A stretch of DNA of 64,000 nt from NCBI RefSeq assembly GCF_009389715.1, contig NC_052409.1, positions 4,701,775 to 4,765,774 of the forward strand. Reading direction: 5' to 3'. Positions 720 through 48,830 of this stretch are shown here, piece by piece. The notes under the pieces were generated by a model. The model did not search any database. It was given only the letters and a program-made list of their open reading frames with translations, and was not told the DNA's origin. Position 1 is the first letter of the stretch. The number at the start of each line of letters is the position of its first letter. Position numbers and translations under genes: made by a program. Source of the DNA: Phoenix dactylifera (taxonomy: Eukaryota; Streptophyta; Magnoliopsida; Arecales; Arecaceae).

Positions 720-3700
720 ATGGGGGAAGGAGGAGGGCGGGAAGGGGACTGGGAGTGCGGGGGGTGCCGGAACCGCAACTACGCGTTCCGGTCCCTGTGC
801 AACCGATGCAAGCAGCCCCGCCTTTTGGTGGACCTCAAGACGCCTGCCGACTCCAAGTGGCTTCCCCGCATCGGTGACTGGATCTGCACCGGTTTGATCA
901 CCTCCCACCTCCTCTCGATTCCTGTTCCTGTCTTTCTATTGATTGCTCTATAGTTTTCTCCAAGTTGCTTTGGATTCGGAGAGCGCTTTAGTTGTTTCGT
1001 AAGTAGGATCGAAGTGTATCTTGCTTTTTAATGGAGTTTAACCTTAACTTTCTTTTTTTGATTATTTTTGGGATTGGGAAGTGTTAGGAAAGACCCCTTC
1101 ACTGGATGAAAACTTTCCTATCTTTGTGTGAGTAGAATGAGAATACCACAATAATTAATCAATGTAAGAACCACCAAAAAAAAAAAAACAAACCACAAGA
1201 AAGAGACAAGAATTTTTAGGTGGAAAACCCTCCAATATGAGGGGAAAAAACCACCGGACCTAAGTCCACCACAAACCTCCACTATCAACAATAATGGGCT
1301 TACAAAGTATCTTCTCTAGGCTAAGCTAGAGGATCACATACATCAAGGATCTCTTCCTTGGATCACAAACAAAGAGTTTATATGAAAAAGAGTTTAGGCT
1401 CCAATAATAAAATGAGAACAATCTCACCGAGTGTAGGTTTGCACAAGGTTCTTCTTCCTCTTGAAATGCCTTGAATAAGATCTTCACCTCCTCCTTGAGA
1501 TGGATTCCACAAGCACTTCTCCCAAGACGGCTACCTTCTTTTGTTTTCTTCTCATCCACCCTCTAATAGAATAATTAACCCTAACCCCTCTTTTCCCTCT
1601 TTTTGTTTCCTTTTTTTTTCTTTTTTTTTTATTTAAATTGCTGGGTCCCACCTCACATAAGGTGGGACTCGGCCAACAATTCTCCCCCTCCCATCTTATG
1701 TGAGAGGCTCCACCAAGCTTGCCTTAAGCATACAAATATCATGCTTCTTCTTAAGCAAAATTTTAGTCATCATATCCGACCCATTCTCATCGGTATGGAT
1801 TTTCTCTAGATGCAAAAGCTTTTCTTCCAACACATCCCGAATCCAATGATACCTCACATCAATGTGCTTCGACCTTGAATGAAAGCTGGGATTCTTGCTA
1901 AGATGAATGGCACTCTGATTATCACAAAAGAGAGTATACTTGTCTTGTTTCAAGCCCAATTCTTGGAGGAATCTTTTCATCCACAACATTTCCTTACATG
2001 CCTCTGTCACCGCAATATATTCGGCCTCTGTAGTGGACAAAGCAACACATTTCTGCAATTTGGACTGCCATGAAACAGCTCCCCCTGCAAAAGTCATCAT
2101 GTATCCCGATGTAGACTTTCGAGTATCAATATCACCAGCCATATCTGCATCTGTGAATCCTTCTAGCATAGTTTTTCCATTTCCAAAGCATAAGCAAGCT
2201 TTGGAAGTACCTCTAAGGTATCTAAGTATCCATTTGACTGCAGCCCAATGTTCTTTGCCAGGATTCGAGAGAAATCTGCTCACAACACCAACTGCATATG
2301 CTATGTCTGGTCTTGTACACACCATGGCATACATCAAACTTCCTACTGCTGAAGCATAGGGTACCTTTTGCATCTCCTCTTTCTCCCTTTCATTTGTAGG
2401 ACATTGCTTGTTTGTGAGTTTGAAATGATTTGCAAGTGGAGAGGAAATCGGTTTAGCCTTTTCCATATTAAACCGCTCGAGCATCCTTTCAATATACTTT
2501 TCTTGTGATAGCCAAAGCTTCTTGATCTTTCTATCACGAGAAATTCTCATGCCAAGCATTTGCTTTACGGGCCCCATATCTTTCATGGCAAACGACTTGC
2601 TTAAGTCTTTCTTCAACCTATCAATTTTGTTAGTATCACGGCCAATAATCAACATATCATCTACATAAAGCAATAGAATGATAAAATCACCATCACTAAA
2701 CCTTTGCACATAGACGCAATGATCGGATTTTGTCCTCTTGTAGTCGTGGCCCATCATGAAAGAATCGAACTTTTTATACCATTGCCTTGGTGCTTGTTTA
2801 AGCCCATATAAGCTTTTCTTCAACTTGCAAACAAGATGTTCTTTGCCCTTAGTTTTAAACCCCTCAGGTTGCTCCATATAAATTTCTTCCTCAAGGTCTC
2901 CATGCAAGAAGGCTGTCTTCACATCAAGTTGTTCAATCTCAAGGTCCATACTAGCTGCCAAACCCAATATAATCCGAAGAGATGACATTTTCACAACCGG
3001 AGCAAAAATTTCATTAAAATCTATACCTTTCTTCTGACCAAAGCCCTTCACAACTAATCTTGCTTTGTACTTAGGTTTTAAGCCGCTCTCATCCTCCTTT
3101 AATCTGTATACCCATTTGTTCTTGAGTAGTCTCTTACCCTTAGGAAGCTTTACCAAATCAAAAGTATGATTTTCATATAAGGATTTTATTTCTTCTTGCA
3201 TAGCTTGAAACCATTTATCCTTGTCCTTATGATTCTGCACTTCTTGGATGCATTCTGGCTCCCCCTCATCTGTAAGAAAAATATACTCTGAAGCAGGATA
3301 TCTAGATGATGCTCTGTGCTGTCTAGTAGACCTTCTGACCTCTGGTTCTGTCATTTCAGACTGACTTGATAGTTCACCATATTCTGAAGCTTCACTGTGA
3401 CCATTATCACCTGTAGAACCCTCACTAGCACCTGTATCACTATGCTCACTGTCATCCTGCACATCTCCCCTATCATCATCATGGACCATAGGTGGAGGAA
3501 CTGGATCAAGATTAATTGGAGAACTGTTCAAATACTTCGGCTTCTCTTGCTTTCCAAAGTCTTCAATAAACTGATCTTCAAAGAAGACAACATCTCTACT
3601 CCTGATCACCTTTTTGTCTTTTGGATCCCACAACCTGTATCCAAATTCTTCATGGCCATAACCTAAGAAAATACATTCTTTAGACTTTCCATCAAGCTTA

Positions 3701-6700
3701 GACCTTTCATCTTTTGGAATGTGAACAAATGTCTTGCATCCAAACACCTTCAAATGACTGTAGGATACATCTTTTCCTGTCCAAACTCTTTCTGGCACAT
3801 CACCATCCAAAGGAGCCGATGGAGAAAGGTTGATCAAATCCACTGCAGTCCTCATAGCTTCACCCCAAAATGGTTTTGGCAACTTTGCATGAGAGAGCAT
3901 ACATCTGATTCTCTCTACAATTGTTCTATTCATTCTCTCTGCAACTCCATTTTCTTGCGGTGTTTTAGGAACTGTCTTTTGGAGCTTAATGCCATAGTCT
4001 TTGCAATATTTTTCAAATGGCCCTCTGTACTCACCTCCATTATCTGCCCTGATGCACTTTAGCTTCTTGCCTGTCTCTCTTTCAACCATGACATGAAAGT
4101 GTTTAAATATATCCAAGACTTGATCCTTGGATTTCAAAGCAAAAGCCCATACCTTTCTAGAATGATCATCAATAAAGGTAACAAAATAAAATGCACCACC
4201 AAGAGTTCTACTATCCATCATGCATACATCACTATGTATCAAATCTAGAATGTTAATTTTTCTAGATATAGGTGTTCTATGAAATGCAACTCTATGTTGT
4301 TTTCCGGCTAAACAATCAACACAAGTTTTCAAAGACACACCTTTGGTATTTGGTAGCAACTCCTTCTTGGCTAGAATTTGAAGTCCTTTCTCACTCATGT
4401 GCCCAAGCCTTTTGTGCCAAAGCTTTGTAGAGAAATCATCATCAATTGTATTCACCTCTCCTTTCTTTAGCTTTGCTTGCATCATGTAGAGAGTATTATT
4501 TTTCTTTCCTCTTGCTATCAACAAAGAGCCTTTTGTGAGCTTCCATTTTCCTTCACCAAAATGATTGCTATAACCTTCATCATCAAGCTTGCCGGTGGAG
4601 ATTAAATTGAGGCGGATATCTGGAACATGTCTAACATCTTTGAGTAGCAACTTGCACCCTGTATTGGTCTCTAAACATACACTCCCCATGCCAACAATTT
4701 TGGATAAACCATCATTTCCCATCCTAACACAACCAAAATCACCAGAAGTATAGGATGTGAAGAAACCACCATGTGGAGTGATATGAAAAGAAGCACCAGA
4801 ATCAATCACCCAGTTACTATCTTCATATGCAAGGTTGACACAACCATCACTAACAACAATGACATCTGCATCAGCTGCAACTGCTGTAACATCCTTTTTC
4901 TCTGTCTTTGCTTCACCTTTTTCTGTGTTCTGCTCTCTTTTCAATGCTCTGCACTCTCTTTTCATGTGTCCTAGTTTGCCACAATGATAGCATTTTATGC
5001 CTTTCCTTGACTTTGACCTGCCCCTGGATTTATCTCTATTGTAAGGATACTTGCTTTTGCTTCTACCTCTTCTTTCTGTCACAAGAGCCTCAGCTTCAGG
5101 AGATATTCCCTGTTCTTTTCTTCTAACCTCTTCATTTAGCATGCTATCCTTTACCATATCCAAAGTGACCTTGCCGTCAGGTGCAGAATTGCTTAGAGAC
5201 ACCACAAGAGTCTCCCAACTGTCTGGCAAAGAACTAAGAAGTAACAAAACCTGCAACTCCTCATCTAGGACAAGCTTCATAGTAGTCAACTGATTCACCA
5301 AGCCTTGGAAGTCATTCAAGTGTTCTGTCACACTTTTTCCATCTTTATACTTCAAGTTGACAAGCCTCCTAATCAAAGAGGCTTTATTCTGTGCAGTCTT
5401 TCTCTCATACATGGCCTCTAATTTCTTCCACAAAGAGAAGGCATTGGTTTCTTGAGCAACATGATGAAACACAGTCTGATCAACCCATTGTCTAATTTGT
5501 GCAACTGTCTTTCTATTCATTATCTCCCATTCCTTGTCAGTCTTCTCTTTTGGCCTAGCCTCATCTCCATGGATAGGTTCATACAAATCCTTACAATAAA
5601 GGATATCCTCCATCCTAGGTTTCCAAATGGCATAGTTGGAAGATGTCAATTTAATCATGCCTCCTATAGAATCCTCCATTCGAGTCACACAAGAATTTTA
5701 TCAAACACCTTGTAGGCACAAAACCTTGCTCTGATACCACTTGTTAGGAAAGACCCCTTCACTAGATGAAAACTTTCCTATCTTTGTGTGAGTAGAATGA
5801 GAATACCACAATAATTAATCAATGTAAGAACCACCAAAAAAAAAAAAACAAACCACAAGAAAGAGACAAGAATTTTTAGGTGGAAAACCCTCCAATATGA
5901 GGGGAAAAAACCACCGGACCTAAGTCCACCACAAACCTCCACTATCAACAATAATGGGCTTACAAAGTATCTTCTCTAGGCTAAGCTAGAGGATCACATA
6001 CATCAAGGATCTCTTCCTTGGATCACAAACAAAGAGTTTATATGAAAAAGAGTTTAGGCTCCAATAATAAAATGAGAACAATCTCACCGAGTGTAGGTTT
6101 GCACAAGGTTCTTCTTCCTCTTGAAATGCCTTGAATAAGATCTTCACCTCCTCCTTGAGATGGATTCCACAAGCACTTCTCCCAAGACGGCTACCTTCTT
6201 TTGTTTTCTTCTCATCCACCCTCTAATAGAATAATTAACCCTAACCCCTCTTTTCCCTCTTTTTGTGGTGACAGCTGTGGGATTCGGAGAGCGCTTTTTA
6301 GTTGTTTCGTAAGTAGGATCGAAGTGTATCTTGCTTTTTAATGGAGTTTAACCTTAACTTTCTTTTTTTGATTATTTTTGGGATTGGGAAGTGGTCTTAA
6401 TTAGGTAAGGTGGGGAAAATGATTGGTTAGTTGAGGAGCTTCCAAGAATTGAGTTCCTTCAATTTGAAACTGGAGTGTGAAAGGTGGGTGGGAATGAGAT
6501 TTGAGTTAGAAAAGATGTGGAAAGGGACATTTTGTATTGGTAATGGTTTTGTTCTTGCTGGGAACCAGATGTAGTACTGGTGCGCTAGTTCTTCTACTAA
6601 GGATGCTAGTATGTGTACCATCAATTCTATTAAGCCATCTGCTACTCCTATAGAGACCTCGAATTCTACTACATAACCAAGGTCACTGACTGTATAGGTG

Positions 6701-36375: not shown

Positions 36376-39300
36376 TTACATCCTGTTTTGAGAACCACGG
36401 ACCGGCCTTGACCTTGGAACTATAATAGGTCTACAACAGACAAGAAAAATCAGCAACTCCATGATGAATAATCCTGTACTGATCCAGATATACACGGTCC
36501 TCCTCCAGTTCCATATCAACCGCTTAAAAAGAGGAAGTTCTGACTCAAGTTTTAAAGATGCAGCATAAATCTCAGGGATACCAGCACCAGGCCTGTACTC
36601 TGCCCTTTGTTCAAGAATGACCCTTATGCATACAGTAGGTTCACTTCCTTCTGTAAAGCCTGTCATTTTTACTCTGAGAATCTGCAATTCTGAAGAATAG
36701 CCTGCTAGTAGAGAACCACTTTTGAGAAAAGTCTCTATTAAGTGAATATGAGAGCTCTTGAACCGTAGCATGCATGGCTGGCTTGAACCAGCCATGACTT
36801 TGCCATCTGCTGAGAGAAACTCTGCCCTGACCTTACCTTAGCAAAACCACACATCAGTGGTCAAAGAGCATTAACATAATAACAAACATGACAAAAGTGG
36901 AAAAAAAAAACTAGTGAGACATAAAACAAGATGTTTCTAACTATTTGCAAGTCTGAGCTGCCAGTACTGATATTTTGCATCTAAACCATTTGTACTAATT
37001 AATAGTCACGATCAATCAGCAAGCAGTAAATCATAAATAAAAATCACAGGGGAAAACACTATGAAATATAGGAGGCACAATATGAGGAAGCAAAAGCATT
37101 AGTTACACTACTGATTATCCCTTTCCTCATTGATATTGTATCAGCCAAGCGAATACTCCGCTTGGTAAAAAAAAATTGAAACCCAGAACATAACACAGGA
37201 TGACGTAAGGCAACATCTGTCCAAGCCAATGAAAAACAAGCTGCATTTATTTCTTAGAGGCTCATTATAATATTTTAATTCTCATGGAGAGATACTATGC
37301 CAATTCATTTGTAAGGACTTACGTATGAATGTCGAGTCACACAATGGTTATATGCTAGGAAGATCTTGAATACTTATACAGGTCCAAGGAGCCCAAATAA
37401 CAACTTTTGGCAAGCTATTTTTAGATGAAATCCTGAGTCATTACAAATGGTAACAGAGCAGATCCGGCCCACGGCCTATGTGTGACTAGTGGATACTACA
37501 ACATGAGTCATTTTAGAGTTGACCACCGGCAAATTTTAGTATTTTTTACTGGATTTGGACTCTTAGTTTGGCAAGAATGCTAGGGCTTAAACATGAAAAA
37601 TATGCGAGGACCCATGCATGTGTGTATTTAATTCTATATCAGTTGTGGGTTGGAAAGATCTTGAATACTTACATAGGGCCAACGAACCTAAATAATAATT
37701 TCTAGCTAGCTATTTTTGGTAATGCCCATGGTCGTTATATCAGCCACTACAATTCTAAATTAAGATTAAAGTAAAGGTTTGCCTCATTTTAAATTACCAC
37801 CTCGTTTTAAATTGCAATCCTCTTTTAAATATCTCCATCGCATTCATGTTTAGGTTGCCATTTTTCATAAGATTTTGCTCACCGTATTTCCCCATTGTTT
37901 TGTGCAGTTCAAATTTTGACATAGCATCGATCAGCATAAAGTGTCTTGTGATGTGACAATGGTGAAGACATGGAGATAGAGTAAATGCAAGTTGCATGGC
38001 TAAAAAAGGAAATTATCAAGACTTGTAGACAAGGTGCACAAAGGAGAAAGTTCAATATAATATACGCCAACCTCTGTAGCATCGCTCCACGACTACCACA
38101 TCAGATGATGATAGAAAGAGACTGGTTGATCAAAATAATTCAGAACTTAATCTGGGTTTAAGCCTTAAGGTTGATGTACCTCTAAAATGGTACAATAAGG
38201 GTTAGAGTATATATCGTAATTTTCACTGCTTAATCTGAAATCACAACTAGCTGTCTCGAGATATTCCAAATTTTTCTTCGCCCAATCTTGAGGGAATCAA
38301 ACATAAACATACTACAATCTCTCAATGAGTGCCTTTCCACCAAAACTACCAATCAATAATTATCTAGGTACATCTGTAATAACCATAAAAAAAATTAGCA
38401 ATAAAGTAACTCTCATCAGTTTAATAAAAACATTTGCAATGGCACCATTGCTGGTGCAACTCTTAGTCGCTTAGCAACAGAGCCTTCTATAGCACTGCCA
38501 GACCTTGAATTAGTTGCACATTTTCCTCTTGTTTAAACACTGTTGAAGACAGTTTCTGATGCATAATAAAGTTCATCCAGAGGACTAACTGGTAATTTTA
38601 GTCTTGTTTTCATATGTAACATGGATATCATCTACTGAAGTGCTTATTCGACTGCTGATGACAAAGAGCAGGTTGCACTTGTCGGTATTGACCTTTCGTT
38701 GTGATTCTTGACATTGGACCACAGCTTCTGCACAATGGTTTGCATTTCTAAGAAATAAAGAATCTTAATGAATGGGGATTCTTGTAATACACTTTGAGTA
38801 ATTCATCTAAGATCACTACTATTGGCTAAAGAGATTGTTACAAGGACTGTCACATTTGTCAATAATTAATGATAAATAAGAGCAAGAGGTACTTCTATGT
38901 TGCCTCCTCTACTTTTATTTCTGCCCTTTTTTTCATGGCAGCCAGAAGGTGAAACAGTGGTTACAAACACCTCATTCCATATCAACTCTTCTAAGTTCTG
39001 AGGGTATTATGTCCTCTTCTGTTTGATTATTTGTTCCCTTAAGTTTACTACTCATGGTAAGATAAATCTTCTCATAGTTCTCTAATAAGATACCTCCTGT
39101 GAAAAATATTGATTGATAAATTTATAAACTAAATGTATTTATGTACATATATACATACATATGTATATAAGAGCATTTTCATTGATAGAATAGATGAGAA
39201 GCATGGCAATCTTGGTAAAAGAGAATTTATATGTTGGACAGCAAAGTGACAGGGGAAACTGATTGAGCTTTGTTGCCAGTGTATTCATTGGTCAATCCTT

Positions 39301-41434
39301 GAGCCAATGATTATCAAGAACGAGGAGCAACAATAGGGGGCGTTTGGTAACCCCAACAGGATCACCACGGTGATCTAAGATCCCCGGTGATCCGAATGAT
39401 GGGGTGATTTGATCCTCCGTGATCTAAGATCAATATGTTTGGTAAGTCATGGTCCAGTGATTAAAAATTTTCGGGTATCCATGAGTAACTTGTTTGGTAT
39501 GGTATGGAGATTCAAGATCACCGACCACATAATACCACAAATACCTATGATATATCTTAGATGAATTTTTTATGTGTTTTTAGTTCTCATGAATAAAAAA
39601 TGTAAGTTAATATGCTAATTCCTATAATAGCTCCATAATTCTGTCACATATTCTACTTTTAATAGTCCTTATCATATATTTATTAATCATATAAAATATA
39701 TTATAATAAAATATAAATATATTTATCAATATATTAATTAATAATATATTCTATAAAATATATTTATTACTCCTATAAATTATTAATCTTATAAAAATAT
39801 GTTATTTTTCATTATATAATTAATATTTTTATTTAACATTGATATAATATTGATGGTATATTAATATATCAATTTTTCTGCTAAATTGAGGGGGTATTTC
39901 TGTCTTTAATTTTCAACCCAGGATCACTGCCCTGAGGTGATCTTGGATTTTCGACCTCAAGGATGGGTATCCCATCACCGAGTTGGGCGGTGATTTGAGG
40001 AGTGGAGGTGATTTAGGATCACCGCCACGTAGAATCACCGTGGTGCAACCAAACACGGTGATCTCATCACCTCCATCCACATCACTCTTGATCCTGGGAG
40101 GATCATCCCATACCAAACGCCCACTAAGTGCATGTTTCTCTTCCGTCCTTTATTCTTTCAATGGTTTCCCTCCCATTAATATACCTCTTCGCTCTTTGAT
40201 TTCTAAGCACTTAAAATCCATCCCGGTACAATGTCTAAAGTACGCCGTATTTGCAAATCTCTAGAATATCCAAAAATATACTAATAAGAATATAAGATCA
40301 TTATTTCAACACCAATTTGAATCATATAGAATAAAGGGAACTAACAATTAGACAAAGAAAGAGGCAGATAACAGAGTAACATACCTGGAACATGCCAAGT
40401 TTCCGATTGTAGTCGGATTCTGGCAAAGTCAATGAGATGATCAGCCGCAGCTTGTGATTTGGCGGCACCAACCGCCAACCCCCAGATTTCCAAGCTCCAG
40501 TCTTTCCACCAGAACCCAAGCCACCATTACAAGACCCTATCGGCACGAAAGCATCCGGAGTCGGCTTCGTGTAATCAAAATTCAATTCCTCCATCATCTG
40601 GAGCGGCTCCTCGACAACTCTGCCCATGAACAGGCTCCCACCTAAGAATGATGCCATCAAGAGCCCAGACAGGACCAGACAGACATAGAACGACCAGAAG
40701 CACCCCCAAGCCAACCTCGCCACCAACTTCCCCGCCCCTTGCTGGCTCCCAAGACTCTCGGACACCAAGGGGCTAACTTTCTCCACTAAATCCTTCCATA
40801 CCCTCAAAACCCTCTCTTTTATCGCATCTCTCGCCCGTCTTAGGGTGCCGAAAGGATTGGTCAGAAGCAAGAAAGAGCAATGCATCAACCAAATAGGAAA
40901 CGTGATGGACCTAGTCAGCAAACCGAGTTGAAAAAAAACAGCTTTGATCACAAAACCGGCAAGGGACACCAGGATGCCCTGCGGCTGAGATCCGGCATCG
41001 ACCGGCGGCGGTTCTCCGACACGAGCACGGCTCGCGGCTGGCGATCCGACCGAAATTTCCGGACGCTGGTCTCTTGCCGTGCTAATTTGATCCGAAGGAA
41101 GAGTGGATCTCGAATCATCCGGCTTCTCCCAAGCCTCTTGGTCTTTTAACGCGAGGAGAATCTTGCTCCGGCTTTCTCTGATGCTGGTGATGCCCGAGAG
41201 GGAATCGGATCCGGAGGAGTCCTTGGGGCCTGAGGCGGCGATCCGCCGGGATGGCGGCCGCCGGCGGCGGGGGGCGGCGGGGGAGTGGGGGGTGATCTCG
41301 TCGCCGGGGCGGTTGGAGATGGATTCGAGAGAGGGGGCGGGAGGAGGGTCGAGTGTTTCTTCGGGCGGGAAGGCGTCGAGGGCGTCGAAGAAGGTATAGC
41401 TCGTTGAGTCGCCGTCGAGCTCCGTCTCGTCCAT
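36376..41434 (-). CDS. SEIPIN: Seipin (plant SEIPIN2/3-type, long N-terminus), 2 exons
   Basis: Exons (minus): 41434-40385 (350 codons) and 36831-36376 (151 codons plus stop), joined in phase after MFQ; 501 residues. Seipins sit in the ER membrane at lipid-droplet contacts and organise droplet formation. The N-terminal ~150 residues are polar, Pro/Ser/Arg-rich and probably disordered, typical of plant SEIPIN2/3 and absent from SEIPIN1. A hydrophobic stretch follows at ~153-192. Transmembrane helix 1 is ~245-272. The lumenal seipin domain (~273-460) includes LGMFQVRAEFLSADGK, CMLRFKS and EQRAEYRPGAGIPEIY. Transmembrane helix 2 is ~463-483, with a short basic tail. The single 3.55-kb intron carries two transposon relics. 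The ATG lies in a GC-rich exon, and the gene is divergent from the ERD2-like gene 7.8 kb away. Which SEIPIN paralogue it is cannot be settled without alignment. Confidence 0.95.
37340..37725 (+). mobile_element. Decayed TRIM-like LTR element in the seipin intron
   Basis: Two related ~65-bp blocks (37360-37428 and 37653-37720; both with AGATCTTGAATACTTA and CTATTTTT) lie ~292 bases apart as LTR remnants. After the first, ATTACA is followed by two bases and then TGGTAACAGAGC (37448-37459), one change from the initiator-Met primer-binding site. The next ~140 bases (CGGCCCACGGCCTATG...) are the internal part. The second LTR begins near TGTGTATTTAATTC, where related plant TRIM LTRs carry a TTAGTCCCACATCGG promoter motif, here mutated. 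The element is degraded and non-coding. Confidence 0.6.
39338..40122. mobile_element. Non-autonomous DNA transposon with perfect 12-bp TIRs and GGTGATC subterminal repeats
   Basis: GGGCGTTTGGTA at 39338-39349 is perfectly inverted at 40111-40122. The outer ~130 bases at each end are crowded with GGTGATC/GATCACC words in both orientations, the usual arrangement of transposase-binding subterminal repeats. The middle is AT-rich and non-coding. The GTTTGG-type ends recall PIF/Harbinger-like MITEs, but no clean target duplication was found, so the superfamily is open. It lies in the seipin intron. Confidence 0.75.
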
Positions 41435-42730
41435 GAGAGGAGAAGTCGAAGAAGGGAGGAGGGAAGATAGAAGGAATAAGGAGGTGGGAATAGGGCGCGG
41501 CAGTTCATCGGACCAGGAGAGAGTCGGAATAAACTGGCGACTCGCGGGATGCGGGATTTGGGAACGGGAATAACGGGGTTAAGCTGACGCCTCGGACGGG
41601 ACGTTTCGTTTTTTTTTTTTACCAAAAAAAGAATTATTTTATTTTTAATAAAAATAAAAATTTATGTAAATAAATGATAAATATTAGAAGAAGTGCTTGA
41701 GCTTTTAATTTTTTAGTTAACAGCTACATAGAGAACTAAAAATACGCAAATGGAATATAGGATAAGAAGAGGAATTGTGAGGATATCTACCGAATAAAAA
41801 AAAATAGGTCGAAAAACATAGACGATCAACATGCCTTTCATAACGTACACGTGTCTTTTTCTTTTATTTTTTTAAAAAATTAAATATATTTAACAAATAA
41901 GAAATGCTGAGGGAAGGGCTTGAATCTTTGATATTATGGCTAACAATCAAGTACTCAAATTATATTAAGAGATTTTGTGTTATATAGTAAAATAGATTTG
42001 CTAGGGATTTGCTAGAGCCTAAGTTAGAACTTGGCCTGTCTAGAGTCCCTTCAAAATTAGAAGTGGAAAAGAAATATAGTTAGATTGGACCATTTAATGA
42101 TTTGATGCATAAAAATAATAGGATCTCCATAGCATGAGGATAAATACGCAACTGCATATCAGCCTAATTAGTCATTGCATGGAAGACAAGCAGATTACAA
42201 TTTGATGCCATATCATGCAATGATTAGTATATGGAAACTTTTGAAGCTTATGAGCCAAGACTCATACTAACTTGTGTTTATTAAGATCATAAAAAATACA
42301 AAAACCTCACAGGCTCCACATGGATATTGGATTTTCGAGTCAAGTGCGGATTAAAGATAAACTAATTGAAATATTTTGAGTTCTTATATGAATTTAGTAA
42401 TACCCTCTTGTACTCAACAATTGCTTGGTATATACAACATAAATCATATTATTTTTTTCTTATTTGTCTTGTTTGTAAAATATATTAAAATCTCAAACTT
42501 GACTCCCACCACTATTGTCCTTTCCTTTTTTTTATTTTTTTGATAACACAAAGAGCAAAACAGTAAATATCACCATAAAAAAACCAAAGCAAGACAAAAT
42601 CCATGAGCATCAACTGGAGCTAAATGGCAGGCCTCGCGAGCATAATGGTATGCCCAAAAAAACATGACTAAGGTTACAAGAGTATGAGCCATTCTACCAG
42701 CCACCTAATTCCATTCATGATGTATATGAG
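41435..42730. other. Upstream region of the seipin gene
   Basis: 41435-41600 is GC-rich 5' leader and proximal promoter; beyond it the DNA is AT-rich without coding signal. The last five bases (ATGAG, 42726-42730) are the left target duplication of the following LTR element. Confidence 0.55.
42726..42730. repeat. Left target-site duplication (ATGAG)
   Basis: ATGAG directly before the first LTR; the same five bases directly follow the last LTR at 45176-45180. Confidence 0.85.
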
Positions 42731-42756
42731 TGTTGTGGGATGGGGTTCCCAGTTTA

Positions 42757-42798
42757 GTCCCACATCGGCTAATCAGCGGAAAGGTCTGTGCCTTATAA
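42757..42798 (+). promoter_or_regulatory. snRNA-type promoter pair in LTR 1 (USE and TATA-like box)
   Basis: GTCCCACATCG (42757-42767) matches the plant snRNA upstream sequence element RTCCCACATCG. TTATAA follows at 42793-42798, with centres ~33-34 bases apart, the spacing known for Pol II-type plant snRNA genes. The same pair recurs in the other two LTRs. Confidence 0.7.
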
Positions 42799-42824
42799 TG
42801 AGGAGGCCTAAAACCTTTCCTCAC

Positions 42825-43510
42825 GAGGCGCCCCTACGGGGGACAAAACCGTGAGGGACGCCTAAGCCCCCTGTACGAGCTCCGCGCCTGCAGGTGGGTG
42901 CGCACCCCGTGCGAGCTCCGCGCCCACGGGGCCCAAAGCGGACAATACCATATCGCTCTGCCGAGCTGAGCTGCTCCAGCACTCTCTCGTTCAGACGAGG
43001 CGCCCCTACGGGGGACAAAACCGTGAGGGACGCCTAAGCCCCTGTACGAGCTCCGCGCCTGCAGGTGGGTGCGCACCCCGTGCGAGCTCCGCGCCCACGG
43101 GGCCCAAAGCGGACAATACCATATCGCTCTGCCGAGCTGAGCTGCTCCAGCACTCTCTCGTTCAGACGAGGCGCCCCTACGGGGGACAAAACCGTGAGGG
43201 ACGCCTAAGCCCCTGTACGAGCTCCGCGCCTGCAGGTGGGTGCGCACCCCGTGCGAGCTCCGCGCCCACGGGGCCCAAAGCGGACAATACCATATCGCTC
43301 TGCCGAGCTGAGCTGCTCCAGCACTCTCTCGTTCAGACGAGGCGCCCCTACGGGGGACAAAACTGTGAGGGACGCCTAAGCCCCCTGTACGAGCTCCGCG
43401 CCTGCAGGTGGGTGCGCACCCCATGCGAGCTCCGCGCCCACGGGGCCCAAAGCGGACAATACCATATCGCTCTGCCGAGCTGAGCTGCTCCAGCACTCTC
43501 TCGTTCAGAC
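42825..43510 (+). repeat. Four tandem ~171-bp repeats inside LTR 1
   Basis: Units start at 42825, 42997, 43168 and 43339 (172, 171, 171 and 172 bp) and differ by a few bases. Each runs from GAGGCGCCCCTACGGGGG to CTCTCGTTCAGAC. A fifth, diverged start (GAGGCGCCTTTTATAGG) begins at 43511. Open minus-strand frames across them simply mirror the repeat period. Confidence 0.95.
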
Positions 43511-43822
43511 GAGGCGCCTTTTATAGGACAAAACCGTGAGGGTAGGGGGCAACCTCCGCGGACCCCCGCGCCGTCAGGGCTCGGGACTGTCATTGGGACT
43601 GTCATTGGGCTCCGGCCCTGGGCGACCTCCCGCAGACCCGAAGCGGCAATCCCAGAGCGGACAATACCTCGGGAGGGACGCAGATGCTTTCCTTGCTCGG
43701 CCGGTGTGTGGGCTGGTGTCGGGGTTCCGACCCCACATCAGATGGCGCTAGAGGAAGGGCCCCGGCCACGCACAGACCTTCCCGCTGGGGGGGCTGTGTT
43801 GTGGGATGGGGTTCCCAGTTTA

Positions 43823-43864
43823 GTCCCACATCGGCTAATCAGCGGAAAGGTCTGTGCCTTATAA
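43823..43864 (+). promoter_or_regulatory. snRNA-type promoter pair in LTR 2
   Basis: GTCCCACATCG at 43823-43833 and TTATAA at 43859-43864, with the same spacing as in LTR 1. Confidence 0.7.
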
Positions 43865-43890
43865 TGAGGAGGCCTAAAACCTTTCCTCAC

Positions 43891-44405
43891 GAGGCGCCCC
43901 TACGGGGGACAAAACCGTGAGGGACGCCTAAGCCCCCTGTACGAGCTCCGCGCCTGCAGGTGGGTGCGCACCCCGTGCGAGCTCCGCGCCCACGGGGCCC
44001 AAAGCGGACAATACCATATCGCTCTGCCGAGCTGAGCTGCTCCAGCACTCTCTCGTTCAGACGAGGCGCCCCTACGGGGGACAAAACCGTGAGGGACGCC
44101 TAAGCCCCTGTACGAGCTCCGCGCCTGCAGGTGGGTGCGCACCCCGTGCGAGCTCCGCGCCCACGGGGCCCAAAGCGGACAATACCATATCGCTTTGCCG
44201 AGCTGAGCTGCTCCAGCACTCTCTCGTTCAGACGAGGCGCCCCTACGGGGGACAAAACTGTGAGGGACGCCTAAGCCCCCTGTACGAGCTCCGCGCCTGC
44301 AGGTGGGTGCGCACCCCGTGCGAGCTCCGCGCCCACGGGGCCCAAAGCGGACAATACCATATCGCTCTGCCGAGCTGAGCTGCTCCAGCACTCTCTCGTT
44401 CAGAC
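43891..44405 (+). repeat. Three tandem ~171-bp repeats inside LTR 2
   Basis: Same unit as in LTR 1 but three copies; the LTR is 171 bp shorter than LTR 1 as a result. Confidence 0.93.
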
Positions 44406-44717
44406 GAGGCGCCTTTTATAGGACAAAACCGTGAGGGTAGGGGGCAACCTCCGCGGACCCCCGCGCCGTCAGGGCTCGGGACTGTCATTGGGACTGTCAT
44501 TGGGCTCCGGCCCTGGGCGACCTCCCGCAGACCCGAAGCGGCAATCCCAGAGCGGACAATACCTCGGGAGGGACGCAGATGCTTTCCCTGCTCGGCCGGT
44601 GTGTGGGCTGGTGTCGGGGTTCCGACCCCACATCAGATGGCGCTAGAGGAAGGGCCCCGGCCACGCACAGACCTTCCCGCTGGGGGGGCTGTGTTGTGGG
44701 ATGGGGTTCCCAGTTTA

Positions 44718-44759
44718 GTCCCACATCGGCTAATCAGCGGAAAGGTCTGTGCCTTATAA
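44718..44759 (+). promoter_or_regulatory. snRNA-type promoter pair in LTR 3
   Basis: GTCCCACATCG at 44718-44728 and TTATAA at 44754-44759, with the same spacing as in the other LTRs. Confidence 0.7.
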
Positions 44760-44785
44760 TGAGGAGGCCTAAAACCTTTCCTCAC

Positions 44786-44957
44786 GAGGCGCCCCAACGG
44801 GGGACAAAACCGTGAGGGACGCCTAAGCCCCCTGTACGAGCTCCGCGCCTGCAGGTGGGTGCGCACCCCGTGCGAGCTCCGCGCCCACGGGGCCCAAAGC
44901 GGACAATACCATATCGCTCTGCCGAGCTGAGCTGCTCCAGCACTCTCTCGTTCAGAC
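44786..44957 (+). repeat. Single copy of the ~171-bp unit in LTR 3
   Basis: Only one unit is present before the diverged GAGGCGCCTTTTATAGG segment. LTR 3 also lacks one of two 12-bp copies (GGGACTGTCATT) seen in LTRs 1 and 2. Together these account for its 484-bp length. Confidence 0.93.
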
Positions 44958-45175
44958 GAGGCGCCTTTTATAGGACAAAACCGTGAGGGTAGGGGGCAAC
45001 CTCCGCGGACCCCCGCGCCGTCAGGGCTCGGGACTGTCATTGGGCTCCGGCCCTGGGCGACCTCCCGCAGACCCGAAGCGGCAATCCCAGAGCGGACAAT
45101 ACCTCGGGAGGGACGCAGATGCTTTCCCTGCTCGGCCGGTGTGTGGGCTGGTGTCGGGGTTCCGACCCCACATCA

Positions 45176-45180
45176 ATGAG
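45176..45180. repeat. Right target-site duplication (ATGAG)
   Basis: ATGAG directly after the CA end of LTR 3, matching 42726-42730. Confidence 0.85.
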
Positions 45181-47300
45181 CAATCTTAAAGCGTAATGCA
45201 GACATAAGATCACAAATGTCAGGAAGATAAGGATGGTTCTGTGTTGATTTAACACTGCCAACTTGGTAATGTATCTTTTGGAGTTTATTTGTCATGGAGT
45301 CTTTTAAAGTGTATTTATTGTAATCAATGGAGTTTAGAGTTTCTCTTAGAAACTTGTATTGTATATGGAGGGTTATAATCTTTCCTTTGGTGCTTGAAGA
45401 GTTGGTATCCAAAAGTGACTTAATTGCTCCACTTAGTAGAAGGTGTTGTTTGGTTTTTGCTCCACTTAGTAGGTGTTGTTTTGTTTTTTGCTCTTCACAT
45501 TATCCTTGACTTTGTCTCTTTTAGTCTTCGTTCCTGCATGTAGCTAAGTGTGTTATAGTGGGGAGAATTGTGGGCCTTAAACTCTTTGTTGTTCAAGTCA
45601 TCATTTTCTCTCAATCCAATGGGCCACCATACTAGTCTCCTTGAATTAACACTTCAGTTGGCCAGAGTCAATTCATTTAAAATCATACACATGTTGGGTT
45701 GCCATTAACTTGACCCACTACTGCCATCCTTGGCCCTTTTTGTTACCTTTCATTTTCAAGGTTCCACTATAATCCCCATCTCTCTTTCTTTTAACCTTGT
45801 TCCATTTATCATTTCATATATGGACTTGTTTATTGGATTTTAAAAATAAAAAAAATATTTTTGTTTCCAAAGTAGTGATTCAAAATTTAATTATTTTATA
45901 TTTTTTGAATCGACTTTTGGATTTATTTTCAGAGATGCATCTCTTCGGTGTCAAAACAAGGAGAGATCTTTTGGTAAGAACACATCAAAAGACATATCTT
46001 TTCACTAATAGTAAAGTGCAGGAGATACATCCTTTAGTTAAAGAGATGCAGTGTATCCAAAAGATGCATCTATTGCCATCCTTTATTTTGAGACACCTAT
46101 TCATTTTCATCCCATGACATTGATAAATAGGGTACGGGTCATTTGATCCGATGCAAGTCAAGATCTCAAAGTGAGAAAATAAGACTGAATTATCAATCTT
46201 GGTGAGATTTGAGAGATGTAAGTGAATTAAGGGTGTACACTTATTGGGCTTACAATATAATTGGGTGTGTGTGAAGAGATCGCACAAAATATTTTCCTAT
46301 AAAGATTCTCATGAAATTTTCTAATATTGTCAGAAAGGTTCATTAAGGATCATATTTGGATGCATATTAGGAGAAAGGGTGATTTGTTGTATCTTGGGAG
46401 TTGAGCCGTATATACTTGGGCATGAGCAAATTTTGTTATAAAAAAAACACCTTCATAATGTACCTTGAGTCATGTTCTTTTTTCTCATATCTTATGTTAT
46501 TTTATTTCTTTTTTTTTTGTTTGTTTGTTGGGATTGCTCTAGGAATTTTAGATTATTTGAAATATTATTATCAATAGTTGAATATTTAGACCCAAGCTTG
46601 ATGAATACCTAGCTTCGTCCTTGCTGCTAAATAGGTAAGATTTGAGTTAAATTTAGAATCAGGCCTTGCGGGTTTGCTCCATTGAAATGGTCATAATGTT
46701 CGATACATTTAGTTTGTGACTAAAATCGGAATCGGAATCGGAATTGGATTTGAATGCTAGGTAAGAGTCCGGATTTGATTTTAAGAGATTAGGGCATTAC
46801 CATTTTCTTTTAGAATTGAAATAAAAATAAAACCCCTCTCGACCAAACAAGGAGAATAATAGCTACTCATTCTTATTTTCATTTCAGAGCCAAACTCCCT
46901 CCAACCAAATATGCCTTTAGACATGAACCTTTCCATAAGTCTACTTCTAGATTGCAACGGTTGGCAAAACAAAAATTGCAGCCTTCCCTCGAACATTCAT
47001 TTTTTATTGATGGATTATACTGGCATAGTTATATATATATGGTCCAAATGCAGCTTGACCATGTTAAATGGGTGAGTAGGTAAGTGACCCATAATCCAAA
47101 CTTAGAAATGGTTCAATCCAAATTTTTGGCTTTGGAACACAGTCATACAAGGATCCTAAAAACTATCATTACATCACAACTAACTTAGTGCTAAAATGGC
47201 CATCATTTTAGAGAATTTCTTTTTTCCGATTGATCAAACCATGCTTATACAACATAAGTTTATGCGTCACTAGTGCAACCTAGTTCAAGGGACCGGATCA
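45181..47300. other. Intergenic DNA
   Basis: AT-rich sequence with short chance frames only; a brief GGAATC-type triplicate at ~46725-46750. No gene, RNA or element that I can support. Confidence 0.5.
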
Positions 47301-48000: not shown

Positions 48001-48830
48001 GACCTCGACCCAATCCGATTTTTTGTTCGGATCCTAATTTTGGACCCAGACTCGATTTGGTTGAAGATCGGGTCGGATCCGATTCGGGGTCGGGTCGGGT
48101 TCGGGTCGGATCCGGTTCGGATCCAAATCGGGTCCAATTTTTTGTGCTTTGGGACAAAGATTTGGGCAAATCTAATTTGGTCATATTATAATTATGAGGT
48201 GCTGGGTGACCCATGCCTCAAAAGACTTGCTAAGCCATGGGTGACTTTGAGTCAGAATAGATGACCCATGACTAACTAAGTCGATCTTCAAGCCAAATGT
48301 CCTATTTTTTATCTATACGACTGATTGGACGGAACTTGGTGTCTCCCATCTCCCCTCTCACGAGGACAAAAAAAATCCCACCTTCTTCCAAAATCCAATT
48401 CCATTGCAGAAAACTGGCACATGACCCATATTCAGTTCAGTGTTCTCTCACTTTCGCCCTTCAAAAGTTAAAAGAAACAAAAACCCAAAAACAGAAGAAA
48501 AAAAAAAAAAAAAGCCAGCTACCGAGACACCAGAGGTATCAACAGTGTAGTAGATCGAGAGAGAATCCTGACGGGCCGAGTGTTCCCCCCACTTCTTTTT
48601 TTTTTTTCTCTCTCTCTCTCTCTCTCTCTCTTTCTTCGGATCCATTTGGGTCGGATCGGATCCGTTCGGTAAATCCAGATCCAACCCAAAAAATGATTCG
48701 GGTTTAATTTTAGGATCCGACTTGGACCCGCATGTCCTAAAATTCAGATGGGTCGGATCTACGCGGGTCCGGTCACCGACCGGATCACATTCGAGACTCA
48801 TTTTGGACCCGACCTAGTTGCAGTCATCCG
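47965..48830. repeat. Degenerate GGGTCGG/GGATCC-rich repeats in two arms
   Basis: 47965-48140 and 48640-48830 are built from variants of GGGTCGGATCCGG in mixed orientation. Between them lie an A run and a (TC)n run (48608-48632). The left edge (AGGGGTGCAAATGGGTCGGG) looks like the end of a plant hAT-type non-autonomous element, but no convincing matching right end was found. Frames across it are compositional artefacts. Confidence 0.5.

Follow-up and report, generated by a model that had tools for sequence, protein, structure and literature searches.

A tandemly arrayed TRIM with three LTRs of unequal length in the genome of the date palm

Organization of the locus

The window analysed here is a 64,000-nucleotide stretch (4,701,775–4,765,774) of contig NC_052409.1 of the date palm, Phoenix dactylifera. 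It contains a Seipin-2-like gene on the minus strand (36376–41578), whose open frame at 40322–41578 (418 amino acids) is 100% identical to a Phoenix dactylifera protein over 84% of its length. A short element with three long terminal repeats (LTRs), the subject of this study, is located approximately 1.1 kb beyond the upstream end of this frame. The window also includes a Copia-type element on the minus strand (972–6393), which has 525-bp LTRs (1082–1606 and 5742–6266) that are 99.8% alike and a frame of 1333 amino acids (1696–5697). Instead of a 5-bp duplication, the Copia-type element is flanked by a duplicated target of about 112 bp (972–1083 and 6280–6393) together with about 13 bp of filler. 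ARAGORN places a tRNA-Pro at 48050–48135; the call is within tandem repeats of 11, 22, and 33 bp and is probably false.

The modules of the three-LTR element follow each other on the plus strand in the order ATGAG-LTR1-INT1-LTR2-INT2-LTR3-ATGAG, with a single target-site duplication on the outside (left copy 42726–42730, right copy 45176–45180). LTR1 (42731–43740), LTR2 (43797–44635), and LTR3 (44692–45175) are 1010, 839, and 484 bp long, and all three start with TGTTGTGGG and end with CCCCACATCA. The two internal segments, INT1 (43741–43796) and INT2 (44636–44691), are identical and have 56 bp each. The whole locus measures 2445 bp, of which LTR1-INT-LTR2 spans 1905 bp and LTR2-INT-LTR3 1379 bp. 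The initial annotation had described three LTRs and two 56-bp internal segments within one pair of ATGAG repeats, and its boundaries are exact.

The unequal lengths of the LTRs, which the initial annotation had not recorded, are explained by tandem arrays of 171/172-bp units, likewise absent from it. LTR1 carries four units (42823–43518), LTR2 three (43889–44413), and LTR3 a single 172-bp unit with repeated edges (44784–44965). The array is preceded by a 94-bp head that is identical in the three LTRs and followed by a tail of near-constant length (230 bp in LTR1 and LTR2, 218 bp in LTR3). A 12-bp repeat is doubled in LTR1 and LTR2, and one of its copies is missing from LTR3. The unit and the tail have an exact 17-bp block in common (local score 34, the best of 1000 shuffles reaching 28.5) and resemble each other more loosely besides; judged from this similarity, the two may go back to an old duplication.

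The internal segment is made up chiefly of a primer site and a tract of G, as had been proposed. A primer binding site, TGGCGCTAGAGGAAGGG (43743–43759, and again at 44638–44654), begins at the third base after the LTR and comprises 17 bases, 15 of which match the complement of the 3' end of the palm's own tRNA-Asn plus CCA. Both tRNA loci tested were identified by ARAGORN as tRNA-Asn(gtt). The tract GGGGGGG (43787–43793 and 44682–44688) is presumed to be the polypurine tract. A primer site beside the 5' LTR and a G7 tract, with this putative role, before the next LTR characterize the element as an LTR retrotransposon.

Terminal-repeat retrotransposons in miniature (TRIMs) have been delimited as elements shorter than 1500 bp that occur in two or more complete copies whose target duplications differ and that encode no retrotransposon protein (PMC4717578). 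In agreement with the last of these properties (PMC4717578), no retrotransposon protein was detected in the seven open frames of the element (Pfam, E up to 0.1), and nothing scored above the curated cut-off. We infer that reverse transcriptase and integrase are supplied in trans by an autonomous element. The genome contains 32 two-LTR copies of the family with unshifted duplications, three of which represent one duplicated insertion. Ordinary two-LTR copies without arrays are approximately 680–730 bp long, compared with 2445 bp for the window locus. The TRIM label given initially therefore holds at the level of the family, with its genome copies and single 5-bp duplications. The window locus itself, with at least three LTRs and at least two internal segments inside one target duplication, has the composition of a tandemly arrayed TRIM (TA-TRIM).

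Other classes of small elements were considered. Retrozymes are defined by a hammerhead ribozyme in the LTR; there is no Rfam match in the element, and hence no hammerhead ribozyme was detected. The 5S rRNA sequence of Cassandra is not found, as Rfam gives no match at E up to 5 in 42700–45200. Likewise, there is no Rfam match at the gathering threshold or at E up to 5 that would indicate an origin of the LTR from a small RNA. For Helenus and Ajax, TRIMp3 elements with LTRs derived from tRNA or 5S rRNA (PMC10886601), there is neither an ARAGORN call nor an Rfam match in the element; a worn tRNA-like stretch could escape such searches.

The family in the date palm genome

No other copy of the family is present within the 64-kb window at E up to 1. 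In the date palm assembly of 773,078,369 bases, by contrast, the junction of the LTR end with the primer site occurs 418 times with up to three mismatches (195 + 223) and the LTR-start pattern 172 + 200 times, against none for the reversed junction and none for the control of the start pattern. Because the modules recur in order three times at the locus and the junction is found 418 times genome-wide versus zero in the reversed control, a chance arrangement is excluded. The genome search for relatives suggested by the initial annotation thus yielded a large family, including multi-LTR loci with single 5-bp target duplications. An empty site was sought in the assembly as well, and the left flank of the element is present only once.

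Among the matches listed, 100 exact junctions define 81 loci, 11 of which have two or more junctions. A locus counted as tandem if at least two exact junctions lay no more than 1.5 kb apart on the same strand. Neighbours that have diverged escape this count, which therefore underestimates the tandems. Given these 11 of 81 loci, the rarity of a third LTR that the initial annotation implied is not supported, and three-LTR TRIMs are a common published class.

The basic copy of the family has the form LTR-56 bp-LTR, with LTRs of approximately 312–337 bp. The ordinary LTR has no unit array; the array is absent from 107 of the 141 complete LTRs. When 62 fetched loci were split into head, unit, tail, and internal modules, they gave 80 runs, of which 31 are open or partial, eight are complete without a target duplication, one is a solo LTR with a target duplication only after a shift, and the remaining 40 are complete and have a 5-bp duplication that needed no shift. 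The last group is made up of 32 two-LTR copies (L2I1) and eight runs with three or more LTRs: four L3I2, including the window element, and one each of L5I3, L6I5, L7I5, and L7I6, every one with one 5-bp duplication. The proportion of eight in 40 is not a rate, since the loci were selected because they resemble the window element or contain an exact junction, and two were selected for being tandem.

The reading frame P0049, encoded by a 2135-bp contig of a relative, runs internal-LTR-internal-LTR; as read from this protein, the tandem order is therefore found in that relative too.

The two LTRs of one insertion are expected to be identical at integration. Unequal LTR lengths are nevertheless observed in 19 of the 32 two-LTR copies (three of the 19 being one duplicated insertion), and in nine of these the difference is 11–14 bp (for example, in L100, L104, and L115).

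Several loci have unusual arrangements. Inverted, palindromic copies occur at L075, L080, L085, and L076–L079, and the two arms of L075, L077, and L080 are 95–99% alike. TRIM pairs in inverted orientation have been shown previously as well (PMC4717578). In the 52-kb contig C1674, a palindromic copy is repeated three times, every 18 kb or so (L076, L077, and L078), and another is located in contig C1873 (L079). The stretches of about 4.5 kb are 98–99% alike and have no Rfam match. In the three-LTR array L081, the remaining 3' portion of the middle LTR is missing, and the loss stops exactly at the internal segment. In the seven-LTR array L114, only 7 bp of one internal segment are left, which brings two LTRs almost into contact.

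Origin of the third LTR

That there is only one target duplication points to a single integration. The element in the window is best explained, with a probability of roughly 0.8, as a TA-TRIM of the type L3I2 that integrated once by means of enzymes supplied in trans, was tandem at or soon after integration, and changed its unit numbers later. According to this scheme, a non-autonomous element of the date palm family would have integrated with the reverse transcriptase and integrase of an autonomous element. The tandem state would have been reached either by the formation of a multimeric cDNA through strand transfer between RNAs, to which we give an even chance, or by unequal exchange between sister copies, with a chance just short of even. 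The unit numbers of four, three, and one would then have been produced by slippage or unequal exchange. Unequal exchange and strand switching are the two routes that the initial annotation had named; both are discussed in the literature, and the present data do not discriminate between them for this locus.

The timing of the events can be approached through substitutions that are private to one LTR. There are two in LTR1, one in LTR2, and one in LTR3, with the differences of LTR3 counted module by module, because the 54–56 substitutions reported by the aligner are an artefact of misplaced units. The private site of LTR3 is at about position 105, in the first unit, whereas those of LTR1 are at about 693 and 963, in the last unit and the tail. 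One late crossover would leave the sites private to LTR1 on the left and those private to LTR3 on the right. The reverse is observed, so the changes probably occurred after the tandem state had been established. The four private substitutions in the window thus suggest, weakly, that its array arose at or soon after integration.

In the six-LTR array L094, each of the 12 variable sites is private to a single LTR. The divergence of its LTRs is approximately 1.2% (1.54% for the outer pair), compared with a median of 1.08% for the LTR pairs of two-LTR copies (n = 32). Private sites together with a divergence similar to that of two-LTR pairs favour arrays that have been present from about the time of insertion.

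The principal alternative, to which we assign somewhat less than even odds, is late unequal exchange between the LTRs of sister or allelic two-LTR copies, which would leave the outer duplication intact and make the middle LTR a hybrid. Recombination or unequal crossing-over has been proposed for the arrays of Wukong and Cassandra (PMC4528315, PMC7215508). In the window, LTR1 and LTR2 agree with each other, and differ from LTR3, in the order of unit types and in the doubled 12-bp repeat. However, P0049 reads as carrying a doubled 12-bp repeat, and the LTRs of single insertions often differ by 11–14 bp; the single copy in LTR3 is therefore probably a later loss. The middle LTR of the window has a private substitution of its own, and the private sites of the outer LTRs are in the reverse of the order expected from a single late crossover, both of which argue against late exchange at this locus.

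Over six arrays of the family (L066, L090, L094, L095, L106, and L134), 13 inner LTRs have 14 private substitutions and 12 outer LTRs have 24 (binomial p 0.07). The inner LTRs of L106 and L090 have none, L090 being counted on the head and tail only. This tally leaves out L114, which has many shared sites, L081, L089, and L093, which have no clear target duplication, the fused L133, and the partial L103 and L113. The smaller number of private changes in inner LTRs leans towards later exchange. In L095, variants are shared with a period of three units (third and sixth LTRs, fourth and seventh LTRs, second and fifth internal segments), a mark of block duplication by exchange. Seven of the 19 variable sites of L114 are common to several LTRs, mostly neighbours. 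A 13-column repeat copy in both outer LTRs of L095 that is absent from the five inner ones is consistent with strand transfer between RNAs that were not alike; the length of LTRs is, however, labile. Arrays formed at the time of insertion and later exchange probably both act in the family, and for the window array an early origin is more likely than a late one.

An assembly artefact, in which a two-LTR copy was expanded by mis-assembly, is very improbable: the exact unit numbers in arrays of 171-bp units are easily misassembled, but the three LTRs in the window can be told apart by private substitutions and by the number of their units. Tandem copies, each set inside a target duplication of its own, are present at many loci, and they are also found, as read from the protein P0049, in the contig of the relative. 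Least probable of all is recombination between two independent neighbouring insertions with deletion of the intervening DNA, the usual older account of complexes with a shared LTR (PMC1950507), since independent insertions would leave unlike flanks, whereas ATGAG is present on both sides.

Promoter-like motifs in the LTR head

The head of each LTR includes GTCCCACATCG, an exact match to the consensus of the upstream sequence element (USE) of plant snRNA genes (PMC9845283), which is followed after 25 nucleotides by TTATAA. The USE is at 42757–42767 in LTR1, 43823–43833 in LTR2, and 44718–44728 in LTR3, and the corresponding TTATAA at 42793–42798, 43859–43864, and 44754–44759. A USE with a TATA-like hexamer 20–30 nucleotides further on was found in none of 200,000 Markov shuffles of LTR3. 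The distance between USE and TATA in U6 genes is 24–25 nucleotides. In snRNA genes transcribed by polymerase III, the USE is one helical turn closer to the TATA than in those transcribed by polymerase II, and the TATA is positioned at –28 to –30 (PMC9845283). A TATA at –30 predicts a start at 42823, which is the left edge of the LTR1 array. The plus strand of the element has only three runs of at least four T, one per LTR, each at the right edge of the array (43519–43522, directly 3' of the LTR1 array, 44414–44417, and 44966–44969).

These motifs might be taken to mean that U3 contains a polymerase III promoter of the U6 type, external to the gene, from which the LTR is transcribed, with the 171-bp array as a repeated R region and TTTT as the terminator. 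The exact USE with its 25-nucleotide gap, the failure of the shuffles to reproduce it, and the predicted start and sole TTTT at opposite edges of the array speak for such a promoter, as does the conservation of the USE: 141 of 152 heads have it intact, and divergence is greater in the portion of the head that follows the TATA. However, head positions 11–26 are conserved as strongly as the USE. TTATAA is found at a gap of 25 or 26 nucleotides in just 76 of the 152 heads, and 64 have TTAAAT. In addition, 87 of 99 measured LTRs without arrays have TTTT 40 nucleotides downstream of the initial T of the TATA position, at about +10, where it would be expected to terminate polymerase III immediately. 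On balance, a polymerase III promoter is improbable. If it were real, transcription of this TRIM would start from a type 3 promoter, and the 171-bp array, variable in unit number, would serve as its R region.

No TRIM with a promoter of this type was found in the available text of the TRIMp3 proposal (PMC10886601), the only source in the literature searched that uses TRIMp3, in the sense of LTRs derived from tRNA or 5S rRNA. No paper in that literature links an LTR retrotransposon with TCCCACATCG, and no LTR with a USE is named in its titles and the beginnings of its abstracts, though this does not prove that none exists. In viral contigs, 65 stretches match a loose USE/TATA pattern; none of them has a gap of 24 or 25 nucleotides, and none aligns with LTR1 or LTR3 at E 1e-3. 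A 26-mer of the LTR has no match in the viral contigs.

Comparison with known systems

TA-TRIMs are common, with 129 subfamilies reported in 35 of 43 genomes, and the L3I2 type accounts for 63 of 93 tandem arrays in maize (PMC4717578). The date palm was included in that survey with nine TRIM subfamilies, among which the family described here may be (PMC4717578). The L3I2 elements of Gao et al. (2016) have three LTRs, two internal segments, and one pair of 5-bp duplications, as in the window; the window LTRs differ from them in carrying 171-bp arrays and in their unequal lengths (PMC4717578). The maize TRIM Wukong, similar to the date palm family, forms tandem copies with three to seven LTRs and has an internal domain of 72 bp (PMC4528315). 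Its LTRs are 230 bp long, and no array inside them is mentioned in the available description, whereas those in the window hold 171-bp arrays (PMC4528315).

Cassandra also forms tandem arrays of short LTR elements without coding domains, for which both recombination and template switching have been discussed (PMC7215508). By contrast with the window element, which has no Rfam match, the LTRs of Cassandra contain 5S rRNA sequence (PMC7215508). In rice and other plants, LTR retrotransposons in tandem share with the window element the order LTR-internal-LTR-internal-LTR within one target duplication, which has been ascribed to a single insertion (PMC11899658). Unlike the window element, in which none were found, the 28 rice tandems selected in that work code for retrotransposon domains (PMC11899658). 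Template-switch complexes of the Triticeae resemble the window element in having a third, shared LTR and flanking 5-bp duplications (PMC1950507). However, they are large and protein-coding, and their outer LTRs are highly alike, whereas the outer LTRs in the window are those that differ most in length (PMC1950507).

Whether tandem arrays are inserted ready-made or grow later has been stated as an open question (PMC11899658). The date palm family is young and abundant and has arrays of three to seven LTRs with single target duplications, so that private mutations and the haplotypes of populations allow the order of events to be reconstructed. Measured against the published systems, the window locus is a tandem TRIM of known structure and, taken alone, an ordinary one.
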